Below are positions 7,825 to 29,310 of a DNA stretch of 35,831 nucleotides, in pieces. The stretch comes from a virus: the IMG/VR virus record IMGVR_UViG_3300025133_009838, positions 1-35,831 of that record. The stretch is one strand, 5' to 3'. Positions within the stretch are counted from its first letter, which is position 1, and every line of letters begins with the position of its first letter. The position numbers and the translations under genes were made by a program. Under the pieces are notes generated by a model that saw nothing but the letters and a program-made list of their open reading frames with translations, was not told the DNA's origin and did not search any database.

Positions 7825-9714
7825 TTAATTATCTTCAACTCTAAATTTAAATGTATCTTCCTGTTCTCTCCAGTCTCCAGATATATGATAAAAAAGCTTA
7901 ATCGTATACATATAATCAGACTGCAGCATGGACAAATCTAAATCAAAATAACTACCAGAATTATCATATGACAAATAAGTCTCATAATCGTTACTGCCAG
8001 TAGAATTGTTAATTACCACTTTTTGGTCAATAGTTCTAAGAATTTCGTATGAAGCACTTGGTATTATCGTCTTTTCAATATCAGTCGAAGCAACTGTGTA
8101 TATTGTTGGACTGAAATTTCTAGGACGAGCGAAAACTCTAAATTTGGCTTTTTCATTTTTCCTATAAGCAGATTTTAGATTAGTAATTTTTGTTGTATAC
8201 TGGAAATAATCATTTGCGGTGCGCACGCACGTATCATTAAAATCTTTAACTGTGACAGACCCGGTTTTGTATTCCCCGCCAATACTACCAACCCAAACAT
8301 CATTTAAAGTTGTTAAAGCAGTATCAATAACGCCGGAAGCTTTATATACTCCGGTACTAACCTTCGATGCAGTCCAAGTTGCTAAGACCGAACCATCTGG
8401 GGCGCCGTCGCTAGACTCATATAATTTTACTGATATAGTCTCAGTACCAGTTTTAGGAATATCTTTTAATGTACCGCGTATATAATTGTATAAATATAAA
8501 TTATTTATGTTATCCTGGGCTGAGGCTACAGAAGAACTAGCATAGAAATTACCTCTGTCGTCAGTCACGCGAGAATCCCAGCGCGCTTCGATAACTGGCC
8601 TTAGGAAGAAATTCTCGCTTGTTCTAGAAAAGAATCTCTTTGTATAAAAGCTTTTTCTTGCGCCGACAGTATTATGTATTAAAGCGCCGTCATCTTTGCC
8701 AGTCGATGAAGAATGATAGCCTTCTTGACTAGAAGTTATAAAAATACCAAAACCGTAATTTGGTGAATTTCCAGCTATCCACTCTTCTACTGCGTTAGTA
8801 ACGTCTAATAGCAAGTCTTCATGACCGTTTTCAAAAGTATAAGTGTACGTAGGCATTGTAGAGCCTGAAGTATACGAGGATGAATAAAAATCACCTCCAA
8901 TATTTGCCCACTGGCCTGTTCCGCCACTAAAATTAGTAGCTGTTATATGGTCGTTAGTGTCAACATTGATTTCTGAATTTCCGCGATATCCCGTTGTATC
9001 TTGTGTGAGGGGCAGTGTCATTTGTGAATCAGCATCGCCGGCCGCTGCAGCTGTGCCGGCAGTTATTTTTAGCGAAGTTACGTTATTAATAGCAGTTTTT
9101 ATAGAGTCTATCGCATGCGTTGTATTACTATCTCCGTCAAATCCAATCGCGCCGTCGGCGAGGCTGGTACCATCATAATCTATAGTAAACGTTTGTACGT
9201 TACCCTCTGCATCTGTGAGAGTAAAAGTTTTTGCGTCCAAAGCAGCTAAATTGGCTCCACCTTGTAAGACTAATGTTGCGGTCGCGGCAGTAAAATTACT
9301 ATTAGCGTTGATCCAGTTTGATCCATCTATTGTATCTTTAGTTAAATCATCATAGTCGATCATGTCCAAGCCGGTACCTTCCTGCCAAGATCTTGATACA
9401 GCCATGACGTTGGCTACTAGATTTTTTGGCAATTGTTCTGCATGCCTGGCATTATACAGCCTCAAATAAAACTTAACATTGTTTAAGCCGCCGACGACCT
9501 CGTTATCTCTATCCGATATCATCGTATCGACCGGGAACTGGACTAGGGCCCTTGATAATTCAACCGAAGAGGTTGTTTTTTGCCCATATAACGAGAAAAT
9601 CTCAACCACATCAGCGTTGCCCATATTTGACCCCGTGCCACGGGTCGTCATGCCAAATTTAAAAGCATTGGTAATTGTACTATCTTGACCTGCTTTATAT
9701 CTTTTTATGCCCAT
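7825..9714 (-). CDS. Tail appendage/structural protein (629 aa)
   Basis: This is a predicted beta-rich virion protein. It starts within a TAATG overlap with the end of the gp6-like gene, so its translation is probably coupled to a baseplate component. The N-terminal part (residues 1-120) and the segment from about 265 on (QWANIGGDFYSS, then EDLLLDVTNAVEEWI) look like two parts of one fold. Residues about 140-262 form a separate low-complexity Thr/Ala/Asp module (TFTLTDAEGNVQTFTIDYDG to HITATNFSGG) that appears inserted between them. A similar module lies near the C-terminus of the next gene. KRFFSRTSENFFLRPVIEAR follows around residue 355, then a DDRGNFYASS stretch. No enzyme motif was seen. 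Its placement in the tail is inferred from gene order. Confidence 0.85.
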   Translation of the reverse strand: MGIKRYKAGQDSTITNAFKFGMTTRGTGSNMGNADVVEIFSLYGQKTTSSVELSRALVQFPVDTMISDRDNEVVGGLNNVKFYLRLYNARHAEQLPKNLVANVMAVSRSWQEGTGLDMIDYDDLTKDTIDGSNWINANSNFTAATATLVLQGGANLAALDAKTFTLTDAEGNVQTFTIDYDGTSLADGAIGFDGDSNTTHAIDSIKTAINNVTSLKITAGTAAAAGDADSQMTLPLTQDTTGYRGNSEINVDTNDHITATNFSGGTGQWANIGGDFYSSSYTSGSTMPTYTYTFENGHEDLLLDVTNAVEEWIAGNSPNYGFGIFITSSQEGYHSSSTGKDDGALIHNTVGARKSFYTKRFFSRTSENFFLRPVIEARWDSRVTDDRGNFYASSSVASAQDNINNLYLYNYIRGTLKDIPKTGTETISVKLYESSDGAPDGSVLATWTASKVSTGVYKASGVIDTALTTLNDVWVGSIGGEYKTGSVTVKDFNDTCVRTANDYFQYTTKITNLKSAYRKNEKAKFRVFARPRNFSPTIYTVASTDIEKTIIPSASYEILRTIDQKVVINNSTGSNDYETYLSYDNSGSYFDLDLSMLQSDYMYTIKLFYHISGDWREQEDTFKFRVEDN

Positions 9715-11510
9715 TATTTAATTGTCCCTTTGATATCAATACTAGGAAATTTCAATTCGTAAATTGTATCTGGTGGCGCGTACAATATTCTGCCATCCGC
9801 AGATACGTATTCAGACAAGTTTATTGTATATGAAGAATATTTAGAACCTACGCGATCTACTATTTCCACGTTTGTAACGTCGACAATCTCGTCTAAATTG
9901 TTTAATACATCATATATTTTAGTAATATAAATCGGCTGTCCAATATCTAATTTCTGCTCAAATATATTTTCAATTTCTGTAATCGCTAGGTTTAAAGCCT
10001 CAAACTTATCTTGACTATAGTCGACAACAGCGACAAAATTAATTCCAATACTTACAATTTTAGGATCCAAGATATCAATTGTGTCGTTAATCATTTTATA
10101 GTGATTAATCCATGTCTTAACATTCCTCTTCATAATTTGATTACATTCAATCAAATTCTGATTTATGTCTTCAGCTAGCAAATATAAATTCAGGTTTCTC
10201 TTAAATGAATCAGCATCTCGAATGATTTTAGTTCTTTTAATCTTGCCGAATTTAGAAGGCATTCTATATATTAAAGCTTCGTAATCCTCAACAGTTACGG
10301 CCCGGTTTTGAGAAGCAAAGACATCGTTAACTCTCTGTTTGAGTTCCTTAAGCGTTGGTATGCTAACATCTCCTAATACTGGCTCTTCGTTTATAACTTC
10401 CAAGCTGTCCCTAACAAAAACTTTTTTTGAAGTTTCAGCGGCAGATTCTTTAAAAGAAAATAGCGGGTCTATAACTGTGTTAAGGGCGCGACTGGCGACA
10501 TTGACGTCTTCTTCTGTATTGGTCCTATAAATTATTCGAAGAGTTGTGTTAGAGGGAGCAATGCCAAATTTGTCAGTCTCCAAAAGTTTTGATGGGTCCA
10601 AAGATAAATCCGTCTCGTAGGATCTTCCATGCATTTTTAGAACAACATTTGAAGGATGCGTTGTATTGTCCGTCTTAAGAGACGATTCCGACCCATATCC
10701 AAATTTTAAGGTTATTTGGCCACTATTATTTTTAGTAGTAAATCTACGCGGAACAGTGGTAGTCACAATAATATTCGGCACTCGGTCTCTTGTGTCCGGA
10801 TCCTTGTTCACAACAGATTTAAAAATTGTGTCCTGGGATAAATATTCTACTTCAAAATACTCATGGCCTTCAGAATCAGTCACAGAAACAATCTCAGTTA
10901 TATTTGGATCGGAGACAGGTACCTCTAGAAATCTTTCGAAAGCCGCAACAGAGTGCAGCGCTTCACTTAGCTCGCCTGATATAACCCGGCCATAAGCTTT
11001 TACCGCGAAGGAAGTTGGCGCGCCGTCTACTTCCGTTTCGGTCGCGACCACTATCTCATTATCAGCACTAGCGAAATCGACGTCGTCTATAAGGGTGAAT
11101 ATTTGGCCAATTTGAGAAGTGAATTTACTTCCCCTTACGAGCATTGGTAGATAGTTCACATCCGGGCCAGAGCCGTTGACCTCAACAGGCGCCAAGATAT
11201 AAAGGGCAACGACGCCAAAAGAATTTGCTCTTAAAGGTTGTTTATACCCAACTTGTTCCCCAAGTCTTAGTACATTGTTATACTCAATAGCCGTATCCAA
11301 AAATGACTCATTGGCTTGATAATCTAAGTAAAAAGATAAAACATCGCCGACGTGGGCCACTGTATCTAACATCAAAGAACCGAAAGACGCTTGCGAAAAA
11401 TCTTTAAATGTGTCAGGGTAATAACGCTTGGCATATTCTACCAGGCTATCTTTTATAGAATTAAAATCGCGATTAGTGTATTTTATGAGTTTTTTGTCTT
11501 TTTTCGCCAT
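9714..11510 (-). CDS. gp6: Baseplate wedge protein, T4 gp6-like (598 aa)
   Basis: This is a structural subunit of the baseplate wedge. In T4, gp6 dimers join neighbouring wedges into the ring around the hub. The N-terminus has the pattern I associate with gp6/baseplate-J proteins of T4-like marine phages: YTNRDFNSIKDSLVEYAKRY, then FSQASFGSLMLDTVAHVGD, then LSFYLDYQANESFLDTA, then VGYKQPLRANS. The C-terminal third (QNRAVTVEDYEALIYRMP, then the IVSIGINFVAVVDY stretch) fits the baseplate-J C-terminal region. Length is close to T4 gp6 (about 660 residues). The gene starts 2 nt after the gp25-like stop, matching the common gp25-gp6 order in myoviruses, and overlaps the next gene by 1 nt. Confidence 0.92.
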   Translation of the reverse strand: MAKKDKKLIKYTNRDFNSIKDSLVEYAKRYYPDTFKDFSQASFGSLMLDTVAHVGDVLSFYLDYQANESFLDTAIEYNNVLRLGEQVGYKQPLRANSFGVVALYILAPVEVNGSGPDVNYLPMLVRGSKFTSQIGQIFTLIDDVDFASADNEIVVATETEVDGAPTSFAVKAYGRVISGELSEALHSVAAFERFLEVPVSDPNITEIVSVTDSEGHEYFEVEYLSQDTIFKSVVNKDPDTRDRVPNIIVTTTVPRRFTTKNNSGQITLKFGYGSESSLKTDNTTHPSNVVLKMHGRSYETDLSLDPSKLLETDKFGIAPSNTTLRIIYRTNTEEDVNVASRALNTVIDPLFSFKESAAETSKKVFVRDSLEVINEEPVLGDVSIPTLKELKQRVNDVFASQNRAVTVEDYEALIYRMPSKFGKIKRTKIIRDADSFKRNLNLYLLAEDINQNLIECNQIMKRNVKTWINHYKMINDTIDILDPKIVSIGINFVAVVDYSQDKFEALNLAITEIENIFEQKLDIGQPIYITKIYDVLNNLDEIVDVTNVEIVDRVGSKYSSYTINLSEYVSADGRILYAPPDTIYELKFPSIDIKGTIK

Positions 11511-11512
11511 GA

Positions 11513-11908
11513 TTAACTAATATCTCCAGGATCTATGGTTATTTCTGCCTCCAAATTCAACGTTGGTACCTCGTATACGATCTGCACAGATAAAGTTTGT
11601 CGATCGATTAACTCATCAATAGTAGATGCCGTGCCAAAACTAATCTCAGTTACGTTTATGAAAGGCATATATTTATTTACTTGGCTCGTTATTCGTTGTT
11701 TAATCTTTGGCTGGACTTCTAGGTTTGGCTCAAATAAAAACTGTTTCAAACCAATACCAAAATCCGGATTCATTACTCTTTCACCGGGAGAAGTTAACAA
11801 TAGATTTTTAAAATTTTGTTTAACTTCTTCCTTATACGAGGTTACCAATGTGTAAGGGCCGTGTGCAAGATCTCTGTGTAGTGGTAATTCGGGGCCTAAG
11901 CCTTTCAT
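11513..11908 (-). CDS. gp25: Baseplate wedge protein, T4 gp25-like (131 aa)
   Basis: This is a small baseplate wedge subunit of the GPW/gp25 family, which in contractile tails and related injection machines anchors the first sheath ring to the baseplate. The core motif is visible at about residues 35-65: QNFKNLLLTSPGERVMNPDF followed by GIGLKQFLFEP, where the SPGER part corresponds to the conserved EPR-type turn of the family. Length (131) matches the family (about 130). The start at 11908 has AGGAGA 8 nt upstream, and this Shine-Dalgarno overlaps the stop codon of the giant gene. The gp6-like gene follows directly. Confidence 0.95.
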   Translation of the reverse strand: MKGLGPELPLHRDLAHGPYTLVTSYKEEVKQNFKNLLLTSPGERVMNPDFGIGLKQFLFEPNLEVQPKIKQRITSQVNKYMPFINVTEISFGTASTIDELIDRQTLSVQIVYEVPTLNLEAEITIDPGDIS

Positions 11909-11916
11909 CTTCTTTC

Positions 11917-11922
11917 TCTCCT
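11917..11922 (-). promoter_or_regulatory. Shine-Dalgarno overlapping the giant gene's stop
   Basis: The minus strand reads AGGAGA 8 nt before the gp25-like ATG. Its first two bases lie inside the TAG stop (11921-11923) of the 3926-residue gene, so translation of the two genes is probably coupled. Confidence 0.65.
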
Positions 11923-14900
11923 AAAGCTCGTCCTGGCAATTAGGATCATTGCCGATATTCTCAATGTCGTCATGCATTTTATCTTCGTATACATCCATAA
12001 GTAGTAGCGCAAGATAAATCATACCAGGAACAGTGCTAGGAGGGCCGATAACAATTGGCGCCGGAATTAGGCCGCCAAAATACGGTAACTGGGAAGGCAG
12101 CATAGCAGCCCACAAAGAGGGCAATAAATAAGGCGAAGAAAATATAGCCTTCATAATTTCTTTTGCTTCAGCCATTTTTAAATCAATTTCTTCTTTAATA
12201 TCATCAGATTTTTGTTGAAGTTCTACAATGTCTTCCTGGACAGTCTCATAATCTTCTTTAAGACCATTGATATCTTCCACCGCCTGCACTATATCGTTAT
12301 ATTTGCTAGTATTTTCTGATTTCCAGTTTTCCCATGCTTCATAATCGGAATCGGCGGGGGTTGGTTCATATATACCAACTTCCCACCCCATCAGGGCGCC
12401 ATCGGTGACGAGGTGCACTCTGCCTTGTAGGTCTTGAGGCAAACTACTTTTTGCGAATTCTAGAGGAATCCTGAGTTGGCCGGCGGCGCCGTCCAGCGCT
12501 GTTAAACCGTTTTGTGCTTCTTTCACCGCCTGATCAACAGCAGCCTTTGCCATTCTTAAACTTTGCTCAATAGCACCAATAATAGTTTGCTGTACCGTGT
12601 TGGCAATGTCTATAATAGCTTTAGCAATAATTATCGCAGGGTCGGTTATTTCCACAAATCCCTTGAGAATGAGCAACGGGGTCTCTAAAATTAACTTCAA
12701 GATCTGTTTAGTCAAGCCAGGTTCTTGTCCGGTAGTGCCGGTTTCAGCGCTATGTTGTTGCTCTTCTAGAAGATTTTTAATCGGATCTGGTACATAATTA
12801 TAATCCGATGAGCTTCGTAAGCCTTGAACTACAGACAGTATCATATCTTTTGTCTCATCTAGGAGATCAGAAGTCTCTGGGATCCATCGAGACATACCCT
12901 CAGCTGAATAAAGGAGAGCTAAGGAAAAATATCTTTTTACCGGAAGTAGGTGCCCAAAAAGCAATTTAAATTCAGCCGTGTCTTTCATCTCTTCGAAGAA
13001 ATTGTAAGCCATAATATCATGGAAGAGGCTGGTTGATTCGCTAAGCGACGCGTAGTTGTAATGGGTGCCTTCAAGAACAAAGTTACCCTTTTTTAAATCT
13101 AACTCTCTGCTAACTTCGATAATCGGAATATGTATTTCTGGTACTAAATATGTTTCTGCTATATTGGTCCGCGTTGGGTTAACAAAGATGGCTTCCTCTT
13201 CTAGTTCCACAGGCGCCTGCTCACCCTGGGGGGCGGTGATGGCTTCTGGGTCCTGTTTGCCGGTGACGGCGGCGCCGCTGCTCCACGCATCTAGGAGGGG
13301 TCCAAAGATGGTCAACAGCGCTTGCTCGCCCCAGGTGAATTCTTCCGGTGGCGTGCCGGAGTCCCATACCTCATTGTGGTCTAGGTAACCAGCATTGATG
13401 TCTTCATCGTATGTGCCTTCAGGTAACTCGGCATTAGAGGCTATCTCCGTTGGGGTTGGATTTGGAGTCGGCGGAAAATATCTAGCTCGATCATAAAATA
13501 CTGCCATGGCCGGATAAATGTCATTCACCCCTTGCGCGCGCTCGATCTCGTAGGGCGTTATGACGTCGAGTACAGCGTCGTTGGCGTTTATAGATGAGAA
13601 AGGAGCGCTGGTCTCTTCGAAACTTAACGGAATATTTGGTTGATAAAAATGACTTGGGCCATGGGGATCTTGTCTGATAAAATCTATACCATCATTCGCT
13701 AGCTGTACAATGTCGGTCTCGGTGGGGTCATAATCAAAATGGTCAAGATATTTTCTTTTCTGAAATAATGATTTAGTACGTTTTGCAGCTAATACACGGG
13801 CGGGATCTTGCATCAAATCATTAAAATCATGGCCACCAGAGGAACCCTCCGTGACGTAGCCTTGGATCATCTGCGCTGCGAAGGGCTGGTGATACCACTC
13901 TTTCATAACTGGGTAGCTAGCATTATAAGTAAGCCGAAGGCCGAATTCAATTTTACTAAAAAATGGCGCAAGGCCATAACTATTGTATAGGCTCTTCAGC
14001 AAGTCCGGGGCGGCGCCGGTGGGTGCTAAGTAAGGCAGCATAATATACTTACAGAAGTATTCCCAAACGCCCAAGGGAATATAATCAAACATGTGGCACT
14101 GAAATACGTTAGCTTCGCTTCTATAATTTCCTAGAAGAGGGCCCTCGAAAGCGTCGCCGGTCAGGCCAGGTAGCCCCGGCTCAATTGGCACAAAGCAAGG
14201 ATCTTCGCCGATTGGATATTCGACTTCTGTAGTAATCCTATATACTTGGCGCTCTGCGGCTGTTGTATCGACTACACGAACAAATGGTTGAAAGGTCATA
14301 TTACCGAATCTAAAGTTTATATTATTCCCCACAAGATATTCTTGTAAATTTTCCGAATCTTTCCACAAGTCCCTAGTTCTCGGGCCGGCGACGCTGGGCT
14401 TCTGGTCTAAATGAGGCGCACTATTCCCGGTGTATATGCTTTCGGGACGAGCGAGGTAGTTGACGGATCCGTCAGATGCCTCGCTAAGGGCCGGATCGAG
14501 GATCCGGCGGGCCTTGATCTTTTGGCCGACGAAGCCGCTCCAGGTGCCCGCTTCGCTCTCACCGTACAGGACGATGTTCTCGAACGCAGCTAGTCCATAA
14601 TTGTCTCCGTCATCAAAGAAGTAGCCTTCATCCAAGGCGCCATCTGGTCCTAGGCTTTTGAAGAGGCTAGGAGACAAATCAGGCTTCGCCGGAACAAAGA
14701 GTTTTCCGAGGCCGATCGGCTTGCCCGTGGACGCGTCGAGGTCGACTACAGAGTAGCCGGTCTGGCTCTCGATCTGGCTAAAGATATAATTATAGTTATT
14801 CGGCCTAAAGCTTGCGTCATTTTTTTGTGGATATAATATATAAGGTGATTTACCTAGGTCCAAAATATCACCTTCTTCGACGTAGCCCCCTGAGGCCTTC

Positions 14901-17900
14901 TTGAGCTTGTAGTTGTATACTTTTTGGCTGGCAACCTGCCCAATATCCCCTGCGGAGGCGCGAGGATTGTAAATCATTGTGTTGATGGGAAGAGAATGAA
15001 AAGTGTCTTTTTGACCACTCCCATAATCATACAAATTTGATTTAGTCGCAGCTAGGCTAGCCGGTTGCCAATCTTGAGTTGCGACATAATAAGTTGGGTG
15101 CTCATCCTGCGCTACCTTCAATGCGGCTTCGCCGTCGACGCCTAGGCCGATATCGTGGCCAAAAAACTCTGTACGAGAGTAGCCCGGGAGAGCGGTCTCA
15201 TATAGTGCTCCTAGTAATACTTCGCCGGCGAGAGCAGGATTAACCTCTGTTAGGCCAAATTCGGGGCCGCGGAATTCCGAATGAAGTTTCGTATTGCCGC
15301 CATAATTCATAGTATATACGTTGTTAAGAATCCTAGATCTGACCCGGGTCAAATCATCTATGGTTTCACGATCAACTTCCACAGAGATGTTTGTATTAAC
15401 GCGGTCTGAATTCTCGAATAGAGTATCAATTATTTCAGCGATATTCTTTCCCTCTTCAGAGATCAAATATTTTAGCGCACTAGTATCTTCCAAGGCCAAG
15501 AAGGCTTCTATATTAGAATATCCCTCTTTCTTTTTTAGAATGTCATTTGAGTATTCAACAATTAAATCAAAATTTGGAGTTTCTTTTTTTAGATTATCTA
15601 TGACTGACACGATAGTAAGATCGTCTTCAAACACATTATATAGGTTAAACCCGTCCCAGGCAGCAATCCCTGCCAAGCAAATTTCCAAGGTAAAGACTCT
15701 TATTAATAATATTGTACAGCCTTCTAGCAAAGATCTCTGTACGGCGCCTTCAGCGACCAGGCTACCTTCAAAAATATCACGACAAATAGATTTTTCATAA
15801 AATTCAAGTATGCTACTTTTTACTTTCTCTAGATTAAAGAAATCAGTCTCTGTGTTCTGTAAATCAGCGGTCGCCGTCATACCTAGTTGATCAAAAAGCG
15901 CTGCGCAGCGAGGATCAACATTACTTTTGTTTAAGGGACTTTTTAAAATCTTTTTCCATAATTTTCTTAGATACTTTCTATAGTTTAGTCTAGAATGCCT
16001 TATTGCGTTAAAAGCCTGGCCAGAATAAGCATGTTGTAACGCCGTATACCCATATGTTAGAACAGCCTTAAGATGGGTTCTTTGTTCTTCGCTCATTGGC
16101 GTGCCACCATGGTGGATAAGGGCATCATTAAATTTTTTCTCAAGTAATTGGCAAAAAATAGTCGGCTTATTATTCAAGGGGTTTACTTCTACTGCTGAGT
16201 GGTCACCAGCTTCGCCGTCCCAGTCGAGGGTCCGAGTTAAATTATATTTAGATGTATTGTTCGGCGTCCAGGCGCCGAAGAAGGTGGCGGCCTTTTCGAT
16301 GTCGAAGGGTGCGTCGGTCTCGGGGTCCAGTCCCAGTCCCAGATTCAGGATCGTCCCGCCAGACATGTCGTAGCTCTTCGATGACGCCGCGGCGGCTGAT
16401 ATATTTTTGTTATATTGTGTGGCAATAGAATTGTGATTGGCCGTCGTCCAGCCGTCGAGAGCGAATAATTCATCCAGTAGGTCTTTTATATCAGGCGCGT
16501 ATTCCTGTCCAAATTCATAATTATAATTCGTATTATTTAACTTATTGTCTTCTAATATTACCTCTCCTGCTGCAGGGTCGTCCTCCATAAGTACTTGTGA
16601 TTTAAACACGGAAAAGTTATCTCGCGCTGCTTCTGCCTGAGAAGTTATATTGTCTAACGTTGAGCCGGCGGCCTCCATTCTGACATTCTGGTGCACAAGT
16701 TTTTTCGGGGTGGTGGAAAATTGTAGCTGATCCAGCAAAAGAGCTGTTTCAGCATTGTCAGTCTGTATACCTGAAAATACTTTCATCAGTTGGCTAGTTA
16801 TATTGGCGGAATTTATATTTTTATAAGATATATCAGTTAGCGGAAGATTGTAAGACAAATAATTTGGATTAAAATTCTTCATTGTCCGGGCCTCGGGCGC
16901 AGGAGGCGAAGTGGCCCTTAAACTACTGTACTGTAATGGTGGCGCTGCTAGACCAGTGCCCAAAGTAAAATCTTCATATATATATGGTTGATATTGATTA
17001 ATCATTGTAGAATAGTATTCTTTGTTGACTAAAGCGTTAGCACCCATAAAATGATTGATAACCGTTTCTTCATCTTGGTTAAGAAGGCTGTTCGGATCTC
17101 TGAGATGTCGATCATAGGTTAAACCAATTGGAAAAAATGATGGCGCGCCACTCTTATACGACTGCCGCAGCGGGTTAATTGTTTTTGCTGTTCCCACAAT
17201 GGATGTTTCATACCACAATATTTGCTTAGAATCATACCATAATGCTGTAGTAGGCTTGGGCTCTCCTTCCACATCCAGGCCGGTGGTGGGGTCGGTGTAG
17301 TCTTGGGTGGACCCGGCGATCGGGTTGCCGTCCTTGTCTTTAGCGACGACGGTATCGTCTCCGTGAGTAAATATCTGATTTGTAGTTTTTATAATATGAT
17401 AGGTTGGACATCCGTAACCGAGTATCAGGCCGTTGAACATGTTCGGACCGCCGGGCATATTGGGGTAAAGCATACTCATCCTCTCTTTCGTGAGGCCGGC
17501 GGCCTCGCCCAGCGTTAGCTCCATAAAAGCGTCTATTAAGTTCCAGGCCTTATATTCAAGATCACCGTCTTTTATAAATTTATTATAGAGATAATTAACG
17601 CCTGGTGATTCCTCTGTAAGTACTACATACCACGGTATTGTTAATTTAGTCCAGTAAGGGCCCGTTGAAGTACTCAACGGGCTAGGATGATTAAATTGCT
17701 CGGGGTTACTATATTGGCGGTAAAGCGCTATGTCCATATCTTCAGCCCAATCAGATAATCTGCGGTGTATATAAACAGGGCCTTTTTCCTGTTCTTTTTC
17801 CAAGGCACCGGTCGAGCTGGGGTTCAACTTCCAGGACTGGTCACCCGAGGTGTGGCCGTGAATAAGTGACATCGACGGGAGGTTCCCTAAGGTATCGGTT

Positions 17901-20900
17901 ATAGTGGCGCTGGATGCTTTGATGGCAGATGGGACAATATAAGCTAGCCTCTGGTCGATCCGGTCAATGGCGTTAATATCTTTTACGTATTGCTCATATT
18001 CAGCCACCGAAGAGTTATTCATGGAGGTCGCTAAAAGAGGAGAGGCGCCGATGAACATACCAAACATGTCCCACCAATTGCTGCGTAAGGGAGAAATTCC
18101 TCTTAATGGTGTATCAAGTGGCCAGGTAATCAAGCATTGCATGGGATGTCCCCATGAATTGCTATCGCCCGCCGCGGTGCCAGGGTGCTTGGAATGTGAC
18201 GTCTTCGGGCCCAGAGGAAGTCCATAGTATGCCAGATGAGGAATGCCGGCGGGAGAATTCAAAGAAGAGTAATGAAAAGTTCCTGCCATATGTACGCTGG
18301 ACGCGGCAGAGTACAAGGCTCTGTCTGTCCAAAGTAATGTGGCTAAACCGTTCGGCTGTATGTCTTCGGTGAATGATCCAATTATTAAATCGCGTACCCT
18401 TTTATGAAACTCTGGAGAATACGATATTACAGTTCCGGGTGGCAACAATTCGACATATTCCGGATTGTCAGCATATGCCTGCTCTATAAAACTTGAGAGG
18501 ACGGAACCGTCAACGTCGGTACCGGACAATCTGCCCAGCCAAAAATTATTTTCAGTTCCACCTACTGTATAATCTCTGTTTTCATGTTCCCCCTCCAGCA
18601 CTACGCCGGCGATTGTCAATGGTACCGGCTGGGTGTGATCACGAATATCCTCAGGATTTGGTTCAATCTGCTGCAAATATTCCTGATATAATTTAACAGT
18701 ATCACTAGAAAGTTCTACAATAGTTTTGTTGATTTCGCCATCGCCGTTCGGATCGTAGAAGGAGTCGTCGGTGTACGACTCGTGGCCGGTTTCGGCACCC
18801 ACAGGAAGAAACATACCATATGACGTTCTCTCATTGTAGGTCATCTTATAATTCATATGATCTGCGGTGCTTGGATCACCGACGTCGTTGCCAGTTGGGC
18901 CAACATAAGCCACGCAAGAACTAGTATAGGGGTTGGCCAAGGCTTCTGCAAAAACTTTATGTGCTTCCTCAAGTTTTTCTGCTGATGTGGCAGCCTCGAC
19001 GGCGCGGGGCGGCATAGAAAAGAACTTAACCGCCCTCAGGTCGACCATTAAAGAGCCTTTGACGCTAGTTAAAATGTTGTTTGTGACTCTCTCCATGGTG
19101 TTTTTTATGCCTTCTGGCAAGGCGAAAAATCCGCCCGGGCCACATATAGCAGGCAATTTATTTTTAAATGGGTCTGGATCATGGAATATGAAATCAGCCA
19201 GTCCTATAATCTTGTTTCTTAGATCGCCCAACTCACTTCTTAGTTGATCAGCGGCTTCGTCGCTAGTCAGTCCCTGCTTTTTCAGCTCTTGCAACCTTGC
19301 ATCGCTGTTAAAATCCACGGCGCATGGAGATGTAATTATTTCGTCAACCGGCTGGTGTCTGTTACACAGATCCAGACTCATCGATTCACCTATGGTTTTG
19401 AATATGGTGTTGTGCTCCGCAGTTGTATCATACCCTGCCTTAAATATATCCGGCCAAGAAGTTCTCGTCTTGCGTACACACTGGAGCAATAGCGCCTCTG
19501 AAGCTTCTCCTTTCAATAAAGCGCAAAGTTGACCCAAGGACATTTCACTCATTAAATCAGTTATCCACCCGAATACTATCTCTGGATCATTTTGTCCGCT
19601 AAGAGGCTTGAGGATGTTTTGGAGTCTAGGTAAAGAAATGCTGCCGCTGTCGACGGCCGCGGCGAGAGCGTTGTTGTCAGTCGCGGCATTGCCGGCTATA
19701 CCCTGGTCCATTCCCTCTTCTATACAGTTTTCTATATATTCGCGTAATACTAGGCTCAAAGATTGTCCTAATAGATATCCCAACATTGATAAGACAGTCT
19801 CTAGAAGTTTTTGCCCGTAATCACCAATAAAATCATCAGTTTCTAATTTATCAGGAAAGCTTATAGTGGGTACAGGAAAAGAAAAGCGTTTTTTTAGCCT
19901 GTCCCAGTAATCTCCTCCCCAGCTCTCAAACCCGCCGGCCCAGGAATCGGGATCCGAGAAAAGAAGACCAGGAAGATCCAATAAGGGCCCGACGATTAGT
20001 TCACATAAAGCCCCTAAATCCATAAATTTCTTTATATACGTCACCCAATTTTTTGCGTCTTGTATCGTGCCGGCCATAGATCCAGAATCAATATCAGCGC
20101 CATAAATTTTAGCTGGGGCGCCAATAGCACTTAAGTCAGAGGCCATGGCTTCAAGAGATTCCAGGGCCATATCTCCCCCTAAAAGAGGCTCATATTGTGC
20201 CGGGGTTGGTATGAGATATCCTTTCTGTACTAGCAAGGCCCGGGCCTCGGACGAAGAATAGCCTAATTGTAATAATCTTTCTCTTTCATTTTCAATTTCC
20301 GACCATGTATACTTAGAGCCTTGATCCGCCTCTACCTCAATTCCAAATGGTAAAACCTCGATAGCCTGCGCCGTTTCTGGGCGATATCCGGGCTCTAAAT
20401 CAATATAGTGGCCGCCCTTTTCCAAATTAAGAATAATGTTAATAGCGTCTGTATCATCGCCACTAGATACTAAAGCTAAAGAAGCTGCGATGGGTGCGCC
20501 GGCAAATTTAGGACTTATGTCGCCGTCTGAATTAATCGCAGTATTAGTTGCGCCCCCGGTACTAGAATTACTTTGTTCTAATTCTTCCAAAACAGCAGCA
20601 GTTTCATCACTTAAATACCCTTCAGAGGCCCAGCCAAGCTGCGCTGCCAGTTCGGGTACATTTTCAATTATTAATGTTTTAAAACCCCCGGGATCAGCCT
20701 CAATAATCTCAGCAATTGCTGCCTCACATATGGCCTCAGCCGTCATAGGAATTCCTAATTTGGCTTGCAAACAAGTTAATAAAAGCGACATTAACCCCTG
20801 AGGGTCCAAAGTATGTAAAAATCCATTATAAAATATCTTAAATCTTTCCCAGTGCACGTTAGAACCGTCAGAGGCGGTCTCCATGTCTTTCGCTCTTTTT

Positions 20901-23701
20901 TCAATTGCCTTTCTAGAGGCTTCAGGATCCGTTGCTGGAGTTGGAGCGCTCCACATATCTTTCCACTTTTCCATACACTCTGGATTGGAATATAGCAACT
21001 CTTCTAGCTTCCTCTCTTCTGGGCCGACTTCGGTACTTGAATTGCTTAATTTTTCTATAATTTCTAGGCAAGATAAAGATTCTACGTCTCTCTCGGACCT
21101 GTCTTTCGAATACCAAATTTTAAAAGGCGGGACCGAAAAAGATTGTAGGAATTTAATCCACTGTTGTACATCAAATTGATCCCCAAGCTTTTGTTTTGAA
21201 ACAAACATGTTGCTTTCAAACATTAGATAATGAAGTGTTCTAGACCCCTGGACTCCTAAAAATTTCTCCCTTAGGCTATCCAGGCCTACTCTTAAAGTAA
21301 CAGCCGATCTAGGCATAGTTGTTGCGCCGCGAGCTATTTCTTGATCCGTTAGGTAGGGATCAAATTCAAATAATTTAGAATTTTTATTTTCTTCTAAGCT
21401 TTTTAAGCTCTTAGGGTCTGGTGAAAATAAAATATGAGAGATGGTCAGGCGAGCATTTTCACCTAACAAACCATTATCTCTCAAACCAACTTGAATGAGG
21501 TGATCGTTATTTTCGTCCTCAAACGCCTCTAAAAGCATCAATGTGATCGCATCCCTGTCAGTAGTACTCGGGTAAGCCTGTTTGGCGAAGAAATCAGTAA
21601 AATGACCCACTATCTTATCAAATTCTTGGATCTGGCTATCTACATCATATTTTAAATCATAAGGATTTTTTATTACCCCCTTTTGATCTTCAAACTTTTT
21701 TAATCTGTTCTTTATTTCTTCAAAAACTTTTTTAAGATTATTGGCTTTGTTTTTTAGACTATTTTTACCTCCCAGGGGCACATTAAAGATAAAATTTCTA
21801 CCATTTTTGAATTCGGAATCATCCTCAAAATTATCACTATATATTTTTTTAGAATCTGGTAGTGCGTCTATATACATGGCAGATATAGCGAAAAGAGACT
21901 GCTGATTGTTGGGTGATACGCCCTGAGTTGATACCCTCGTAGAAACAGGGACAAAGTATTTTTCCCTCAACTGGTTTAACAGGAATGTTTCTGCTTTATC
22001 TTTGTTCAAATATTTTAACAGCGCGCCGAAGGCGTCGCTTTTGATACCTTCGTTTACAGTATTGGCCTGTATTTGAGCTATAGCGTCGAGGGCGTCTTCA
22101 GAATCTTCATCGTATCCTAATTCTTCAAAATCAATATCGATATCTTCTGGACAAGGAATCTCTTTTCCGCTAGTATCGTAGCATGCCTGAACTGTTATTT
22201 CAGATTCCCAAGCTTGGCCATGCTCATATTCGGTCACTGTAACTTTCTTCTCCTGATACATGTTTTCAGGATCGACAAAGGCTTCCGGTTCGGTGCGACG
22301 ACCTTCGCCGACAATAAAATAGTAATACCCCTCCGAATATCTCAAAGTCGACTTAAAGTTAATGGTCTCGGCGGTATATTCTAAGTCCTCGCCAATTTCA
22401 TCTTCATTAAATTGATTAAAATTAAAATAAGCTAGCCTGGCTTCTCCGGGAGGGATCTTTGTCCAATTATATGTTTTTCCCGGGCTTATTATAGTGTTCC
22501 CAGGAGAAATGGCTACGCGGTTTGAGGAGCTGTCGGTGTTTGAAAGCCTGGGAGCCAATATTGGATCTGGTGACACATTTATTGCGCTAGACCTTTTTTT
22601 AATGTAAAAAGGTCTCGTGTATAAAACTCTGGGCCGACCATCGGTGTCAAGCAAATCCCAGTCTAAATCCAGATTATCTTCTTCAGATGGGTGAAAAACA
22701 AAACCAACCCATGGACCAGTATTGCCATAAGTAATTTCTGTTATTTCTACGCTAGTGCCTAACGGTATTTCAATTCCGTTATCGTCGTAGTTGCCGCTGG
22801 TCGACTCTCTATCGACCATATTGCCATCATTGTCAAGTATTTTATAGCCAAAATCATCCCACCCAAGCTTAAGTGGAGGATCATAAAGTGCCGGTGATGT
22901 ACGAATAGGAAGATAGGGCGACGATCTTTTTTTAGATTTTCTTGGATCTAAAAGCATTCCTATATAATAATCGCTATAAAAAGGCTTTTGTAAGCTAGAT
23001 TCTAAAATAGAGTCGTCAGTTATAGTTGCTGGCCCGAGGGCGTCTGAATAGGCAACTGATCTTATGTCCGCGCCCATTGGGAATCCGATTCCCTTGCCGG
23101 TGGCGCCGACTAAAAATGTCAAAGAAGTGTCCAACAAACCCTCAAGGATCGATGATAAAGACGGCTGATCATCGGCATCGATCGGAGGGCGTGGATAAAA
23201 ATATATGTTTAAGGTGTCTTCACTGATCTCAGACGCAAATTGATTTTGTATGGCGTCTCTAACATCTTGTAGAAAAGAAGCCACTGATTGCGCGACAATT
23301 TCTCTATAAAAGGCCTCGTTATCCGGCGCCATATTATTTTCTACAGCGTATTCTTCAAGTTCTTCACAGCTTTTTATTTTCTTGCAATCATCCCACCAAT
23401 CCTCCGTGGATCCTACGGGGTTAGCTTTGTAGAGGGTATCAGCAGAGTTCTTGAGAGATTTAACGATTTGCCCCAACTTAGCTGCTTCTTGATATTTTGT
23501 TATCTCTGCCAAGTCTGTTTCGTCAAATGGCGGCGCTTGGCCAGTGATATCATACGCTTCTAATTCCCCCATTGGGATGAAGCCCATGAAATCAACATCA
23601 GCGACGCCTGTAAGATCAACTAATTTTTTTAAATAAGCGCGGACATCTTCCCAATATGCTGCGACAATGTCAATTTCTTCGGCGCCTTCTGGAACTGCCA
23701 T
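11921..23701 (-). CDS. Giant virion protein of unknown function (3926 aa)
   Basis: This is a single uninterrupted frame of about 11.8 kb. The start at 23701 has AGAGGT 5 nt upstream, directly after the previous stop. No enzyme domain is recognised. Most of the chain looks globular and mixed, with many Pro, Gly, Trp and Cys residues, unlike the long helices of a tape-measure protein. Visible features are a calcium-loop-like DPNGDGEIN at about residue 1650, a hydrophobic stretch near 2660 (CTILLIRVFTLEICLAGIAA), amphipathic helices at about 3660-3725, a coiled coil at about 3795-3850 and a Pro-rich hydrophobic end (PSTVPGMIYLALLLMDVY). Its place between the lysin/spike genes and gp25/gp6 suggests a baseplate, hub or tail-tip part. 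Several internal patches are unusually GC-rich. Confidence 0.85.
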   Translation of the reverse strand: MAVPEGAEEIDIVAAYWEDVRAYLKKLVDLTGVADVDFMGFIPMGELEAYDITGQAPPFDETDLAEITKYQEAAKLGQIVKSLKNSADTLYKANPVGSTEDWWDDCKKIKSCEELEEYAVENNMAPDNEAFYREIVAQSVASFLQDVRDAIQNQFASEISEDTLNIYFYPRPPIDADDQPSLSSILEGLLDTSLTFLVGATGKGIGFPMGADIRSVAYSDALGPATITDDSILESSLQKPFYSDYYIGMLLDPRKSKKRSSPYLPIRTSPALYDPPLKLGWDDFGYKILDNDGNMVDRESTSGNYDDNGIEIPLGTSVEITEITYGNTGPWVGFVFHPSEEDNLDLDWDLLDTDGRPRVLYTRPFYIKKRSSAINVSPDPILAPRLSNTDSSSNRVAISPGNTIISPGKTYNWTKIPPGEARLAYFNFNQFNEDEIGEDLEYTAETINFKSTLRYSEGYYYFIVGEGRRTEPEAFVDPENMYQEKKVTVTEYEHGQAWESEITVQACYDTSGKEIPCPEDIDIDFEELGYDEDSEDALDAIAQIQANTVNEGIKSDAFGALLKYLNKDKAETFLLNQLREKYFVPVSTRVSTQGVSPNNQQSLFAISAMYIDALPDSKKIYSDNFEDDSEFKNGRNFIFNVPLGGKNSLKNKANNLKKVFEEIKNRLKKFEDQKGVIKNPYDLKYDVDSQIQEFDKIVGHFTDFFAKQAYPSTTDRDAITLMLLEAFEDENNDHLIQVGLRDNGLLGENARLTISHILFSPDPKSLKSLEENKNSKLFEFDPYLTDQEIARGATTMPRSAVTLRVGLDSLREKFLGVQGSRTLHYLMFESNMFVSKQKLGDQFDVQQWIKFLQSFSVPPFKIWYSKDRSERDVESLSCLEIIEKLSNSSTEVGPEERKLEELLYSNPECMEKWKDMWSAPTPATDPEASRKAIEKRAKDMETASDGSNVHWERFKIFYNGFLHTLDPQGLMSLLLTCLQAKLGIPMTAEAICEAAIAEIIEADPGGFKTLIIENVPELAAQLGWASEGYLSDETAAVLEELEQSNSSTGGATNTAINSDGDISPKFAGAPIAASLALVSSGDDTDAINIILNLEKGGHYIDLEPGYRPETAQAIEVLPFGIEVEADQGSKYTWSEIENERERLLQLGYSSSEARALLVQKGYLIPTPAQYEPLLGGDMALESLEAMASDLSAIGAPAKIYGADIDSGSMAGTIQDAKNWVTYIKKFMDLGALCELIVGPLLDLPGLLFSDPDSWAGGFESWGGDYWDRLKKRFSFPVPTISFPDKLETDDFIGDYGQKLLETVLSMLGYLLGQSLSLVLREYIENCIEEGMDQGIAGNAATDNNALAAAVDSGSISLPRLQNILKPLSGQNDPEIVFGWITDLMSEMSLGQLCALLKGEASEALLLQCVRKTRTSWPDIFKAGYDTTAEHNTIFKTIGESMSLDLCNRHQPVDEIITSPCAVDFNSDARLQELKKQGLTSDEAADQLRSELGDLRNKIIGLADFIFHDPDPFKNKLPAICGPGGFFALPEGIKNTMERVTNNILTSVKGSLMVDLRAVKFFSMPPRAVEAATSAEKLEEAHKVFAEALANPYTSSCVAYVGPTGNDVGDPSTADHMNYKMTYNERTSYGMFLPVGAETGHESYTDDSFYDPNGDGEINKTIVELSSDTVKLYQEYLQQIEPNPEDIRDHTQPVPLTIAGVVLEGEHENRDYTVGGTENNFWLGRLSGTDVDGSVLSSFIEQAYADNPEYVELLPPGTVISYSPEFHKRVRDLIIGSFTEDIQPNGLATLLWTDRALYSAASSVHMAGTFHYSSLNSPAGIPHLAYYGLPLGPKTSHSKHPGTAAGDSNSWGHPMQCLITWPLDTPLRGISPLRSNWWDMFGMFIGASPLLATSMNNSSVAEYEQYVKDINAIDRIDQRLAYIVPSAIKASSATITDTLGNLPSMSLIHGHTSGDQSWKLNPSSTGALEKEQEKGPVYIHRRLSDWAEDMDIALYRQYSNPEQFNHPSPLSTSTGPYWTKLTIPWYVVLTEESPGVNYLYNKFIKDGDLEYKAWNLIDAFMELTLGEAAGLTKERMSMLYPNMPGGPNMFNGLILGYGCPTYHIIKTTNQIFTHGDDTVVAKDKDGNPIAGSTQDYTDPTTGLDVEGEPKPTTALWYDSKQILWYETSIVGTAKTINPLRQSYKSGAPSFFPIGLTYDRHLRDPNSLLNQDEETVINHFMGANALVNKEYYSTMINQYQPYIYEDFTLGTGLAAPPLQYSSLRATSPPAPEARTMKNFNPNYLSYNLPLTDISYKNINSANITSQLMKVFSGIQTDNAETALLLDQLQFSTTPKKLVHQNVRMEAAGSTLDNITSQAEAARDNFSVFKSQVLMEDDPAAGEVILEDNKLNNTNYNYEFGQEYAPDIKDLLDELFALDGWTTANHNSIATQYNKNISAAAASSKSYDMSGGTILNLGLGLDPETDAPFDIEKAATFFGAWTPNNTSKYNLTRTLDWDGEAGDHSAVEVNPLNNKPTIFCQLLEKKFNDALIHHGGTPMSEEQRTHLKAVLTYGYTALQHAYSGQAFNAIRHSRLNYRKYLRKLWKKILKSPLNKSNVDPRCAALFDQLGMTATADLQNTETDFFNLEKVKSSILEFYEKSICRDIFEGSLVAEGAVQRSLLEGCTILLIRVFTLEICLAGIAAWDGFNLYNVFEDDLTIVSVIDNLKKETPNFDLIVEYSNDILKKKEGYSNIEAFLALEDTSALKYLISEEGKNIAEIIDTLFENSDRVNTNISVEVDRETIDDLTRVRSRILNNVYTMNYGGNTKLHSEFRGPEFGLTEVNPALAGEVLLGALYETALPGYSRTEFFGHDIGLGVDGEAALKVAQDEHPTYYVATQDWQPASLAATKSNLYDYGSGQKDTFHSLPINTMIYNPRASAGDIGQVASQKVYNYKLKKASGGYVEEGDILDLGKSPYILYPQKNDASFRPNNYNYIFSQIESQTGYSVVDLDASTGKPIGLGKLFVPAKPDLSPSLFKSLGPDGALDEGYFFDDGDNYGLAAFENIVLYGESEAGTWSGFVGQKIKARRILDPALSEASDGSVNYLARPESIYTGNSAPHLDQKPSVAGPRTRDLWKDSENLQEYLVGNNINFRFGNMTFQPFVRVVDTTAAERQVYRITTEVEYPIGEDPCFVPIEPGLPGLTGDAFEGPLLGNYRSEANVFQCHMFDYIPLGVWEYFCKYIMLPYLAPTGAAPDLLKSLYNSYGLAPFFSKIEFGLRLTYNASYPVMKEWYHQPFAAQMIQGYVTEGSSGGHDFNDLMQDPARVLAAKRTKSLFQKRKYLDHFDYDPTETDIVQLANDGIDFIRQDPHGPSHFYQPNIPLSFEETSAPFSSINANDAVLDVITPYEIERAQGVNDIYPAMAVFYDRARYFPPTPNPTPTEIASNAELPEGTYDEDINAGYLDHNEVWDSGTPPEEFTWGEQALLTIFGPLLDAWSSGAAVTGKQDPEAITAPQGEQAPVELEEEAIFVNPTRTNIAETYLVPEIHIPIIEVSRELDLKKGNFVLEGTHYNYASLSESTSLFHDIMAYNFFEEMKDTAEFKLLFGHLLPVKRYFSLALLYSAEGMSRWIPETSDLLDETKDMILSVVQGLRSSSDYNYVPDPIKNLLEEQQHSAETGTTGQEPGLTKQILKLILETPLLILKGFVEITDPAIIIAKAIIDIANTVQQTIIGAIEQSLRMAKAAVDQAVKEAQNGLTALDGAAGQLRIPLEFAKSSLPQDLQGRVHLVTDGALMGWEVGIYEPTPADSDYEAWENWKSENTSKYNDIVQAVEDINGLKEDYETVQEDIVELQQKSDDIKEEIDLKMAEAKEIMKAIFSSPYLLPSLWAAMLPSQLPYFGGLIPAPIVIGPPSTVPGMIYLALLLMDVYEDKMHDDIENIGNDPNCQDEL

Positions 23702-23712
23702 ATTTTACCTCT

Positions 23713-25137
23713 TTAGTTCGCCTTATTATTTTTGCTATTAATATAAGTATTGCCAGACGGAGAAAGGAAATTACCTTTAACACCACTTAGATTTGTTATG
23801 TGCTTCATAACCGATACCTCTGTGAAACTAGCGGTCGCGACATCTAGCTGAATACCTTCCACGATCGCCTCTTTAGAAACTAATGTTTTTTTACCGTAAA
23901 AAGGTGTGTGATGTGTGTGATTCTGCAACGCTTGATTGAATTTCATTTGATATTTTACATACCCATGCATAATTTTTGCTAATGCTTCTAGGTTATCCAA
24001 CATTATAACTAATAATAATTGTAAATTGTTTCCCAATGGTATAGGTTGCAAAGTATCTGGGTCGTTGTTCGCTATCAATTCTATACCACTTTTACCAAAT
24101 TGTTCAGACCCTTGAGAATTTTGTTTGTCTGTTCTGGTAACTAAGTGTAGCGTCTCCCTGCCAATTATTCGAATATTGTCCGCTTTTAAGGCAATTGCGG
24201 AGCGCGCTCCGTGCGGGCCGATCTCTAGTGGGTCTGCAGGGGTTTCTTTAAATTTTCCCAAACCAAAATTGAGATCTACATCAGTTTTTTGAGATATGTA
24301 AATTCTAGCAGCGTCCTTAAAGAAATTAGGGTTTGTATCTTTTTTTCCCAGGCCTGTAACCTCGCTAGGCTTATGGCCTCCGACGCCGGCCACAATATCA
24401 ATCATATCGCATTGAGTGTGACCTTTACCTCCATATCCCGTTAACCTTTTGGCCGGCCGGTCGTTACCCAGCACAATATAGGCATTGCCGTCTTTATTTT
24501 TAATAACCTCTTCACAGAGAGCCCTAGGGCGGTTAACTCTAGCTTGCATTCTCATAGAACCGAATCCGGCGCCAAAGCCGCGCTTAATCCGTTCTATTTT
24601 GCTCATTTCTTTAAATTTTTGTAGTCTTACTTTGCTTACACCTGATATGTCAACCGCCTCTTTTGTTTCAGTTGCTTTTTCAATTATATTTTCTCCAGAA
24701 TCGCTAGTCGGGCTTTGTTTCGGATCAAAATCTTTTAGGGTTTTTCCAAGTGGTTTCCCAGTAACATCACAATCCATCGTCTCTGTTTGGCCTAAATCTG
24801 CACCGGAATCTACCGTAACATCCTTGCATTCAACAGCTTCAAAGCCGCCCAATTCATAGTCTGCGCTTGAACCGAAACTGCCATCTGTAAACGGATTTGT
24901 GTCAAATTCGCCGTTAGTAGTAGAGTTGGGATTGTTATTTTTTTGTTGGTTATACCATTCTTTTGCTTTTTTTGGATCTGTAGTATTAAGAACAGCCGTT
25001 GGCTGTCCTGTGGCATTATCAAAAATACTAAGATTGTACATCTTAGCTTCGCGTACACCATTAGGCGAGTTGTTATCTAGTACTTGTGTTGTAGAAGTAG
25101 TTGCTACTATATTATGCGTTGTTGAGGCATTTGCCAT
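23713..25137 (-). CDS. Putative central spike/baseplate hub protein (474 aa)
   Basis: The probable role is a tail-tip or spike component; this is inferred. The first 150 residues are Asn/Thr/Ser/Asp-rich and probably extended. Residues about 180-350 are compact, with repeating short beta-type segments (RSAIALKADNIRIIGRETLH). Around residues 370-400 is a helical stretch (LDNLEALAKIMHGYVKYQMK), followed by NHTHHTP (His407, 409, 410). In gpV-type spikes a His-X-His cluster at the tip binds iron, so this cluster may be metal-binding, but the context is different and I hold it loosely. The gene lies between the M15 lysin and the giant protein. No strong Shine-Dalgarno is seen; GGGGA lies about 15 nt upstream. 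A function other than a spike is possible. Confidence 0.75.
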   Translation of the reverse strand: MANASTTHNIVATTSTTQVLDNNSPNGVREAKMYNLSIFDNATGQPTAVLNTTDPKKAKEWYNQQKNNNPNSTTNGEFDTNPFTDGSFGSSADYELGGFEAVECKDVTVDSGADLGQTETMDCDVTGKPLGKTLKDFDPKQSPTSDSGENIIEKATETKEAVDISGVSKVRLQKFKEMSKIERIKRGFGAGFGSMRMQARVNRPRALCEEVIKNKDGNAYIVLGNDRPAKRLTGYGGKGHTQCDMIDIVAGVGGHKPSEVTGLGKKDTNPNFFKDAARIYISQKTDVDLNFGLGKFKETPADPLEIGPHGARSAIALKADNIRIIGRETLHLVTRTDKQNSQGSEQFGKSGIELIANNDPDTLQPIPLGNNLQLLLVIMLDNLEALAKIMHGYVKYQMKFNQALQNHTHHTPFYGKKTLVSKEAIVEGIQLDVATASFTEVSVMKHITNLSGVKGNFLSPSGNTYINSKNNKAN

Positions 25138-25146: not shown

Positions 25147-28100
25147 CTATTCCCCAGTAATCTTTTTTCTAGCGTTAGCAATTTCTGCCCACCTGAATAA
25201 AGATCCTTTTTTCCAAAATTGGAAATGCATATGATCATCCCGGCGATATAACCATGATATTCTTTTGATCCTCATCGCCACATCTTCGATTCCATATATC
25301 TCGTCTAGCTGCGACCTGTGGCTATTGAAATCATAAGGACTCCAAGCTGTACCAGAATATCTTTTTTTCAGAAAATGGCCGTTGCCCCATATCATACCAG
25401 ATCTTTCACAAAATACTATTGCCCACAATGTAGGATTAGCTTCCGGCGGGACAATTGGTGTTCTCGCTAATGAATCTAGCGTGGTTTTCATACCCGGGTA
25501 TCCTTCGCCTGGTCCATATAGATCTGTTGCTTGAAATCTATCCTTTACTAATAAAGATCCTTTAGATTTCATGCCGTCGGTATATATATTTTGAACGTTT
25601 TGGCTCACCTCGTTGCTAAAAACCCCCAGAGCTGCGGGGTATATATCGCTCTTTGGACCTAAAAGTGGATTATCTCCTATACCGGGAGTCCAGGCGCCGG
25701 TAAAAATGCTATGTCGCAGATCTGCTGCATTATACCCAGTAAACGACGCGTCCATATCAAAAGCCAAGCCAAGCGCATGACAAGATACTCCCCCGCCATA
25801 TGCAGTTGCTGCATTTCTGCTGTTTACTCCATATCCGCGCGCGCCATTGTTAGCTCGAAATGGAATATAACCCGAGATCTCGCATGCGTGCTGCCATGCT
25901 TCCTCAAGTCTTTCTTTTAAGCAAGACCACATATTATAACTTCTAATCGTGCGGCTCTTGTTACCGCGTGGACTATCGGCGCGCGCTTTATATTTAAATC
26001 TATCCAGCTTGAAGCCCGGCAAAGTAGTCAGCGACGTCGCTTTTTTAGATTTCATAGCGGAGCCGGCTTTTACAAATGGCATAAAATCTTCTTTTACCGG
26101 AAAATATGGCACCATCGTGGCCATTTCAGTATAAGTACTGGGACGCTTAACCGTAATATCTCCGCACTTTGAGGCTGCGGCCACAATAGCCGTGCTTTTA
26201 ACGCCTTTTAATTTTGCCTTATTGAGCATAAACATGTCTTTTAAGAGTACTGGTTCAATCGCACAATCAACTGGTACTTCCGGATTTTCCTGCAACTTAA
26301 ATTGTTTTCTCTTGTTCAAAAGTTTTTGAATATATTTTTCTACAGCATCTCTATAAGCAATTGTCTCGGCGACCAGCGCTATATAGCCTTGGTCAACATT
26401 TTGATTAATCATGTTATCGAATGCCGCTTTGGATGAAAAATATTCCGGCTTAAAAGTTTTTTTAAGTTTGTTCCACAAATCTTTTGGTGAGTCTGCGCCT
26501 GGTTGTTTGTTATCTAAAGAAGTTGTGTGTGTTTGTAATATAACTTCATATTCAGTTAATTGTTGTTGTACACTTTCTTTAGTTACTAATATTTCCGCCT
26601 GTTGTTCAAAGAAACTTAAATGTTTGAGTTCCATATATCTTCTTTTATTCTCAAAATATTTTGCATATGCCTTAGCGAATGGGCCGTCAGAGGCACGGTA
26701 GAAAAAGCCTTCCTTGCAATAAGTTTTATATTCTGGATTGTCATCCCCACAAATTTTGCCCCAATCACCATTGTGGAGTGATGGGATGGCCAGAACATCT
26801 TCAAAATTTTGTATTTCTTCTTCAAGCTTTATCATCTCCCTCACAATCTGTTCCAAACCGAGTGGGCCTGATTTTGTGTTAATAGCCTCCGCGTGGTTCG
26901 GTACTGTATCAGTAGAAGGGGCGGCCGCTGAATTGCTAACACTTTTTAACGGATAATTACCGCTTTGGCCGGAAAAATCGTTTATCATGCTAAAAGCATA
27001 GCCAACCTGCTCATTATTCTTTGTTAAGTGCAGACTAATCGTACTTTTGGAATTTTCAACATCTTCAACAAAAATTGAAAATTTTCTTTGCGCTGTAGCG
27101 GTATTAACAAAATTTTGCCTATATTTGTCGCCATGGCCAAGAAGATCAAAAAACCTATTCGTTTTTGGTTTGTCGCCCGCATATTCAGTAATATAATTAA
27201 ATTCCATTTTTTGTGCGGGATTTTCTGCCTTAAGAGTAAGGTAATCAGTGTATAAAGTATATGAAGGGGTATAGGGAAAAACATAAAAACCGCCGGGAGC
27301 AACGCCGAGGTCGCCGGCGACGAAGCCCGGGCCGATTGAGATATCTCTGTCTAGGCCAATATCAATAAAATCAATTTTCTGAATATTGACTAATCTCAAG
27401 CCGTTTTCGGCTTCTACATGAGTCGCGCTGGCGGGGACGCTTTGCGCAATTGCAGCTAAGTTGACGGCGCCGAGGCCGTCGGCCAAAATTGAAACAAAGT
27501 CTATCTTGTCATAATCAATTCCGAGATATTGTTTTAAGACGTCTAAGACTTCTTGGTGGAATAAATGAAAATTGCCACCCGTTATACTGCCATCAAAAGT
27601 TGAAAATTCGCGATCGCGAAGTCTTGTTACAGACAACAAGCTTTCACCATCAGATGCCTGCAACCCGCTTAGATATTCTTTTGCGTAGGGCAACACCTGA
27701 TCTGTTAGTTTCGTGCGCACAGTTAGGCCGGCCGCGTGCTCGCCTTCAGTATACGGCGGGTCTCTTTGTGCTATTTTTTGCATCCGTTGACCAGAAGACC
27801 GGCCTGTACCAAAACCCTTAGAGTACATCATTTCTGGTATAACCAATATGATATTCCTCTTCTCTTTGATCAAGTCTTTCATTCCAGGCCCAATTTTTTC
27901 TCTAAAATCGTTTCCTGGGGTGACCGCTAATTCTTTTGATTCGGACGGCGTTGTTGTGGGCCCCTTGAGCCATGCATGGCCAAAGCCGCCATCGTTGTGA
28001 AGATAATATTTTATTTCTATTGGCGCTGATAGATCCAGCATCTTAGAGGCGTAGATTATTGTTTCGCGACCGGGTGTGTGTGGTCGGTCCAATAAATCTA

Positions 28101-29013: not shown

Positions 29014-29310
29014 CTACTGATCTTTAATCAAATCATAAATTTCAGATTTTTCTAGAGAAGATAAGTTAGTCGAAGCGCTTTCTTTCTTAGTTAGCATTGA
29101 AGCCAACTTTACCAACTGTTCGTTTGACCTTTGTAACGTTTCTAAATATTTTGCCGCAACAGGGCCTGAATACTGATGCTTCGTTTCATCGGTCTTTAAT
29201 ATCTTCATTAATTCTATTAATAATGTTGAAGCCATGGCTCGGTCTTTTCTCAAGTTATCAATAGCTTCTTCAACGAATTCTTGTGAATTTAAATGTTGCC
29301 TTTTATCCAT
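29014..29310 (-). CDS. Small helical protein, unknown (98 aa)
   Basis: This is a charged, mostly helical protein with no cysteines, signal peptide or membrane segment. Readable segments are ASTLLIELMKILKTDE, YSGPVAAKYLETLQRSNEQ and a C-terminal KSEIYDLIKDQ. Its start overlaps the last 22 nt of the gp55-like gene, so it is probably co-translated with it. The T4 late-transcription coactivator gp33 is a small protein that works with gp55, so such a role is conceivable, but I see no gp33 motif. A terminase small subunit-like role is another possibility. Function unknown. Confidence 0.7.
   Translation of the reverse strand: MDKRQHLNSQEFVEEAIDNLRKDRAMASTLLIELMKILKTDETKHQYSGPVAAKYLETLQRSNEQLVKLASMLTKKESASTNLSSLEKSEIYDLIKDQ

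Follow-up and report, generated by a model that had tools for sequence, protein, structure and literature searches.

The 35.8 kb virus record analysed here (the window, 35,831 nucleotides in full) encodes a giant protein of 3926 residues between the genes for a spike-like protein and the baseplate wedge homologue gp25. It is a real, single protein of an uncultured T4-related phage. The giant is probably a host-contact part of the tail tip, very large and without known counterpart.

A giant gene between hub and wedge genes

The frame comprises 3,926 codons and a stop, read from 23701 down to 11921, while the plus strand over this region is interrupted by stops throughout. It starts with ATG preceded by a Shine-Dalgarno-like AGAGGT, and gaps of 11-12 bases separate it from the neighboring genes. 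The genes of the module are as follows.

11921..23701, minus strand: giant protein, 3926 aa (single open frame, homologues, selection)
23713..25137, minus strand: spike-like (gp5-like) protein, 474 aa (position and a conserved HTH(H)xPF motif only)
25147..29001, minus strand: hub-type protein, 1284 aa, with a C-terminal M15-type peptidase motif (HAxGLAxDxD ... DDHMHFQFW)
11513..11908, minus strand: gp25 baseplate wedge homologue (PF04965, E 2.8e-14)
9714..11510, minus strand: gp6 baseplate wedge homologue (phrog_219, E 6.4e-14; isolates)
7825..9714, minus strand: 629-aa protein after gp6, conserved in the module
1445..7804, minus strand: 2119-aa protein, conserved in the module, with a weak MAM match

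The sequence-only reading had given the frame its correct coordinates, without mention of the minus strand, and had correctly named the neighbors, with gp25 and gp6 to one side and hub/lysin genes to the other; the latter are a spike-like protein and a hub of the M15-peptidase type. Its remark on composition was right for Pro (5.8%) and Gly (6.9%). Trp and Cys, at 1.3% and 0.7%, are not abundant as it had claimed, and this part of its compositional argument was wrong. Peptidase_M15_4 was detected in 5 of 18 hub homologues (best E 7.8e-4), and the spike-like protein gave no Pfam or PDB profile hit. The neighborhood resembles that of the T4 hub (gp5, gp27, gp5.4) and wedge (gp25, gp6), with a spike-like gene before and gp25/gp6 after. 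However, where the window phage carries the giant, only the small genes 5.1, segC, 5.3, and 5.4 lie between T4 genes 5 and 6, in agreement with the earlier statement that T4 has no counterpart of such size.

The flanking genes have several further features. The MAM/LamG-like match of the 2119-aa protein is sub-threshold, and this protein exceeds 2,800 aa in a distant giant-bearing group. Far-T4 phages conserve a 230-aa protein (29289-29981, minus strand) upstream of the hub, with 30% identity in immuto; it appears sigma-factor-like by eye, without Pfam support. At 32483-33605 (minus strand), a gene for a PfkB-type sugar kinase (260 aa) overlaps that for a cytidylyltransferase-like protein (128 aa). 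The pair resembles a heptose kinase/adenylyltransferase whose two halves are divided between phage genes, and it lies among several other genes for sugar-nucleotide functions (epimerases, cupin, methyltransferase).

Relatives were reached through gp6, which as bait yielded 42 related viral contigs; a direct search of viral contigs with the window protein as a family gave no pattern match. Alignments of the giant were then used as queries and added 35 and 77 further loci, on partly overlapping contigs. Complete homologues, each one unbroken frame of 2,024-4,260 aa, were found in about 40 contigs, a number that includes near-copies. The gene order hub, spike-like protein, giant, gp25, gp6, 629-aa protein, 2119-aa protein is invariant in all sufficiently long loci. 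Close pairs of giants have dN/dS values of 0.067, 0.085, and 0.146, indicating strong purifying selection. A chance reading frame is excluded, given complete homologous frames at the same place in about 40 other contigs and dN/dS of 0.07-0.15. Assembly fusion of several genes, named by the sequence-only reading as a possible refutation, is likewise ruled out by the full-length single frames in these contigs. Two distant loci, L036 and L061, match the core family weakly by profile and are included mainly by position. No relative of the giant was found in isolated phages, where tblastn with six giants and the conserved blocks returned matches to the peptidoglycan-binding end of L036 only, nor in bacterial and archaeal genomes. 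A description of the protein was not found in the open-access literature.

The giant is the fastest-diverging protein of the module. Median identities to the window genes across 16 relatives are 35% for the giant, 38% for the hub, 44% for the spike, 53% for gp25, and 69% for gp6; the 629-aa protein has a median of 61% (13 relatives). Its rate is like that of the hub and spike, not the wedge, and by divergence the giant therefore groups with the parts in contact with the host envelope.

Phage affiliation and the spike-to-gp25 slot

By sequence, the window phage is a member of the Far-T4 branch of the T4 superfamily. The window itself is without capsid, portal, terminase, and sheath genes, and the link to Far-T4 phages is made through the gp6 tree. 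In this tree of 57 rows, all 27 giant-bearers fall to the same side of one branch (100/100); presence of the giant is clade-wide and fits a single change. The T4-type capsid, portal, terminase, and sheath by which the Far-T4 branch is recognized occur in related records: G007 matches phrog_138 (E 3.5e-69), phrog_213 (E 6.7e-78), and phrog_2 (E 2e-54), and the sheath match is weak in G007 and above cut-off in G015. The sheath-like frame in G007 (the record of L022; 39251-42715) spans 1,154 aa, and those in G013 and G015 are near 1,000 aa, all far exceeding T4 gp18 in length. Among named phages, gp6, capsid, and terminase have their closest relatives in the Flavobacterium immuto phages, Microcystis Mel-JY01, and a 484 kb uncultured phage (LR756508), with RM378 also among the nearest by capsid.

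These closest database relatives, immuto, Mel-JY01, and LR756508, share the spike-to-gp25 slot with the window phage. In contrast to the giant, their slot proteins are approximately 140-370 aa, and the Far-T4 sister phages, including immuto and Mel-JY01, have no giant but short or unrelated proteins in this position. Some 50 further sister contigs carry short proteins in the slot as well, except for a few in which it is filled by unrelated proteins of 870-1,400 aa; the Mel-JY01 slot includes an annotated chitinase. Profile comparison of the giant with the sister-phage slot proteins gave nothing significant, only recurrent low-score hits near the coiled coil. The sister slots themselves (for example L217:5792-9061, L225:4556-7471, L194, and L235) contain several unrelated families of about 200, 316, 265, and 950-1,090 aa. 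One slot protein of 1,388 aa has a weak NAGPA match, and proteins of the 200-aa and 1,000-aa kinds may have ends in common, as judged by eye.

Conserved blocks, variable regions, and predicted folds

Within one protein under selection, the giant combines conserved core blocks, optional or variable parts, and a very conserved coiled coil and hydrophobic C-terminus. Its regions, with giant residue numbers, are listed below.

23102..23701, minus strand: residues 1-200, variable N-terminal region, absent from several relatives (e.g. L078, L090)
20702..23101, minus strand: residues 201-1000, conserved mixed alpha/beta region (conservation and AlphaFold2 model)
18842..20104, minus strand: residues 1200-1620, conserved helical stretch belonging to the core common to distant groups
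16202..18904, minus strand: residues 1600-2500, variable, indel-rich middle part
15332..16174, minus strand: residues 2510-2790, conserved helical bundle, core block
13802..14344, minus strand: residues 3120-3300, conserved alpha/beta domain
12140..13036, minus strand: residues 3556-3854, conserved block of helices plus a long antiparallel coiled-coil hairpin (3688-3752 / 3795-3854)
11924..12139, minus strand: residues 3855-3926, hydrophobic, Pro/Gly-rich, highly conserved C-terminus (SSPYLLPSLWAAMLPS...GPPSTVPGMIYLALL)

Profile comparison identified blocks at approximately 660-1620, 2600-2790, and 3560-3770 as common to most of the distant groups, with their order kept. Further indel-rich stretches lie at residues 2800-3100 and 3300-3530, and conservation and hydrophobicity reach some of their highest levels in the last 70 residues. 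About 2,240 residues, a little over half of the giant, were modeled with AlphaFold2 at moderate confidence (residues 201-1400: pLDDT 63, pTM 0.52; C-terminal part, modeled on the relative L086: pLDDT 71, pTM 0.63). Residues 201-800 are predicted to contain 32% helix and 22% strand, and the C-terminal part alone is predicted to be mainly helical (58%). The antiparallel coiled coil precedes the hydrophobic end, for which model confidence is low.

The claim that the protein has no recognizable domain was borne out: searches with Pfam-A and PHROGs profiles revealed no domain in the window giant over curated or significant score, and PDB sequence profiles gave one chance-level hit. The single domain match in the family comes from the distant member L036, which carries PG_binding_1 at its N-terminus (residues 35-79, E 5.4e-7); this end corresponds to giant residues 1-200, and the peptidoglycan-binding domain is confined to L036, the window protein not having it. 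Fold comparison of the residues 201-1400 model (pLDDT 63) gave no match. Comparison of the moderate-confidence C-terminal model with the PDB yielded nothing significant, only generic coiled-coil rows or rows with E >= 1. A likeness to prefoldin and V-ATPase stalks (Z up to 9.1) was taken as generic coiled coil, and the weak rows for neck and tail-terminator proteins (E >= 1) were not used. Foldseek searches of BFVD with the same model highlight three unnamed viral proteins (A0A1B1IUR6, A0A516M7H3, and A0A516MAR9; E 3e-6 to 7e-4, probability 1.00), which align with low TM-scores (0.20-0.25). From these predicted models, the three are probably related to the giant, although without detail, and are probably long proteins themselves, since the matching models are numbered fragments.

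Proposed role at the tail tip and alternatives

We favor, with some reserve, reading the giant as a structural protein specific to this Far-T4 lineage, located at the tail tip or baseplate center and aiding passage through the host envelope. A tip scaffold of this kind is preferred on account of the hub/spike-like divergence, the M15-type end of the hub, and the gene position. The fixed gene order, close spacing, clade-wide presence, and purifying selection point the same way, as do the PG_binding_1 domain of L036, the alpha/beta and C-terminal hairpin models, and the presence of other slot proteins in sister phages. Counted against it are the weak core-family match of L036 and the lack of significant sequence or fold matches to characterized tip proteins; comparison with phage baseplate proteins likewise found no profile or fold match. 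The earlier proposal of a large baseplate or tail-tip structure thus agrees with position, spacing, divergence, and the L036 domain, and it remains an inference. In such a scaffold, the conserved blocks, and the C-terminus in particular, would dock the giant to the hub, spike, or tube, and the variable N-terminal and middle parts would face the host envelope, an orientation that is assumed. On contact, the giant may act with the spike and M15 peptidase to bridge the outer membrane and cell wall, its hydrophobic C-terminal end perhaps touching a membrane.

A tape-measure or tube-internal protein, ejected and helping to form an envelope channel, would also be large, and the giant has conserved hydrophobic stretches in its C-terminal part and a predicted long coiled coil at that end. 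Some tape-measure proteins carry cell-wall-binding domains and, like the giant, are large tail proteins with helical parts. The giant differs from these in its mixed alpha/beta models, in which the N-terminal part is not mainly helical and coiled, and in its gene position, which in G007 is separated from the sheath by approximately 55 kb rather than adjoining sheath or tube genes. Moreover, a separate helix-rich candidate of 758 aa (55% AEKLQRM, no Trp/Cys) adjoins the sheath in G007, and in G015 and G013 its homologues are likewise encoded close to the sheath; PHROGs gave it no name, and its status is that of a candidate. Across five records, giant length (2,350-3,752 aa) does not track that of the candidate frames (717-996 aa). 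Given the mixed folds and this separate candidate, a tape-measure role is unlikely, in support of the sequence-only reading.

We regard as equally improbable a host-binding adhesin or unusual tail fiber at the baseplate, outside the core of the tip. Very fast divergence, the indel-rich middle, and the optional N-terminus would suit such a protein. However, other large proteins occupy the fiber-like position downstream of gp6, the giant has no fiber or adhesin profile match, and it is present in all clade members at a single place, whereas fibers tend to be swapped. Least probable is a role as spike-delivered cargo or effector, comparable to the spike-adjacent effectors of other contractile systems: the giant gene directly follows the spike gene and the sister slot carries enzymes or unrelated proteins, but searches of the giant found no toxin or enzyme domain, and it is conserved, kept clade-wide, and far larger than usual cargo.

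A bolder form of the tail-tip reading, which we consider possible but doubtful, is that the giant represents a new class of giant modular tail-tip machine, in which one polypeptide of 2,000-4,300 residues takes over anchoring, reach through the envelope, wall binding, and membrane contact, and which defines a large uncultured clade. If it is a virion protein, the giant would rank with the largest of T4-related phages and would be a fixed trait of a widespread uncultured clade, for which it serves as a marker gene; it also provides a concrete target for proteomics and cryo-EM. If the tail-tip reading is true, the spike-to-gp25 slot would be a site where contractile tails gain lineage-specific tip parts.
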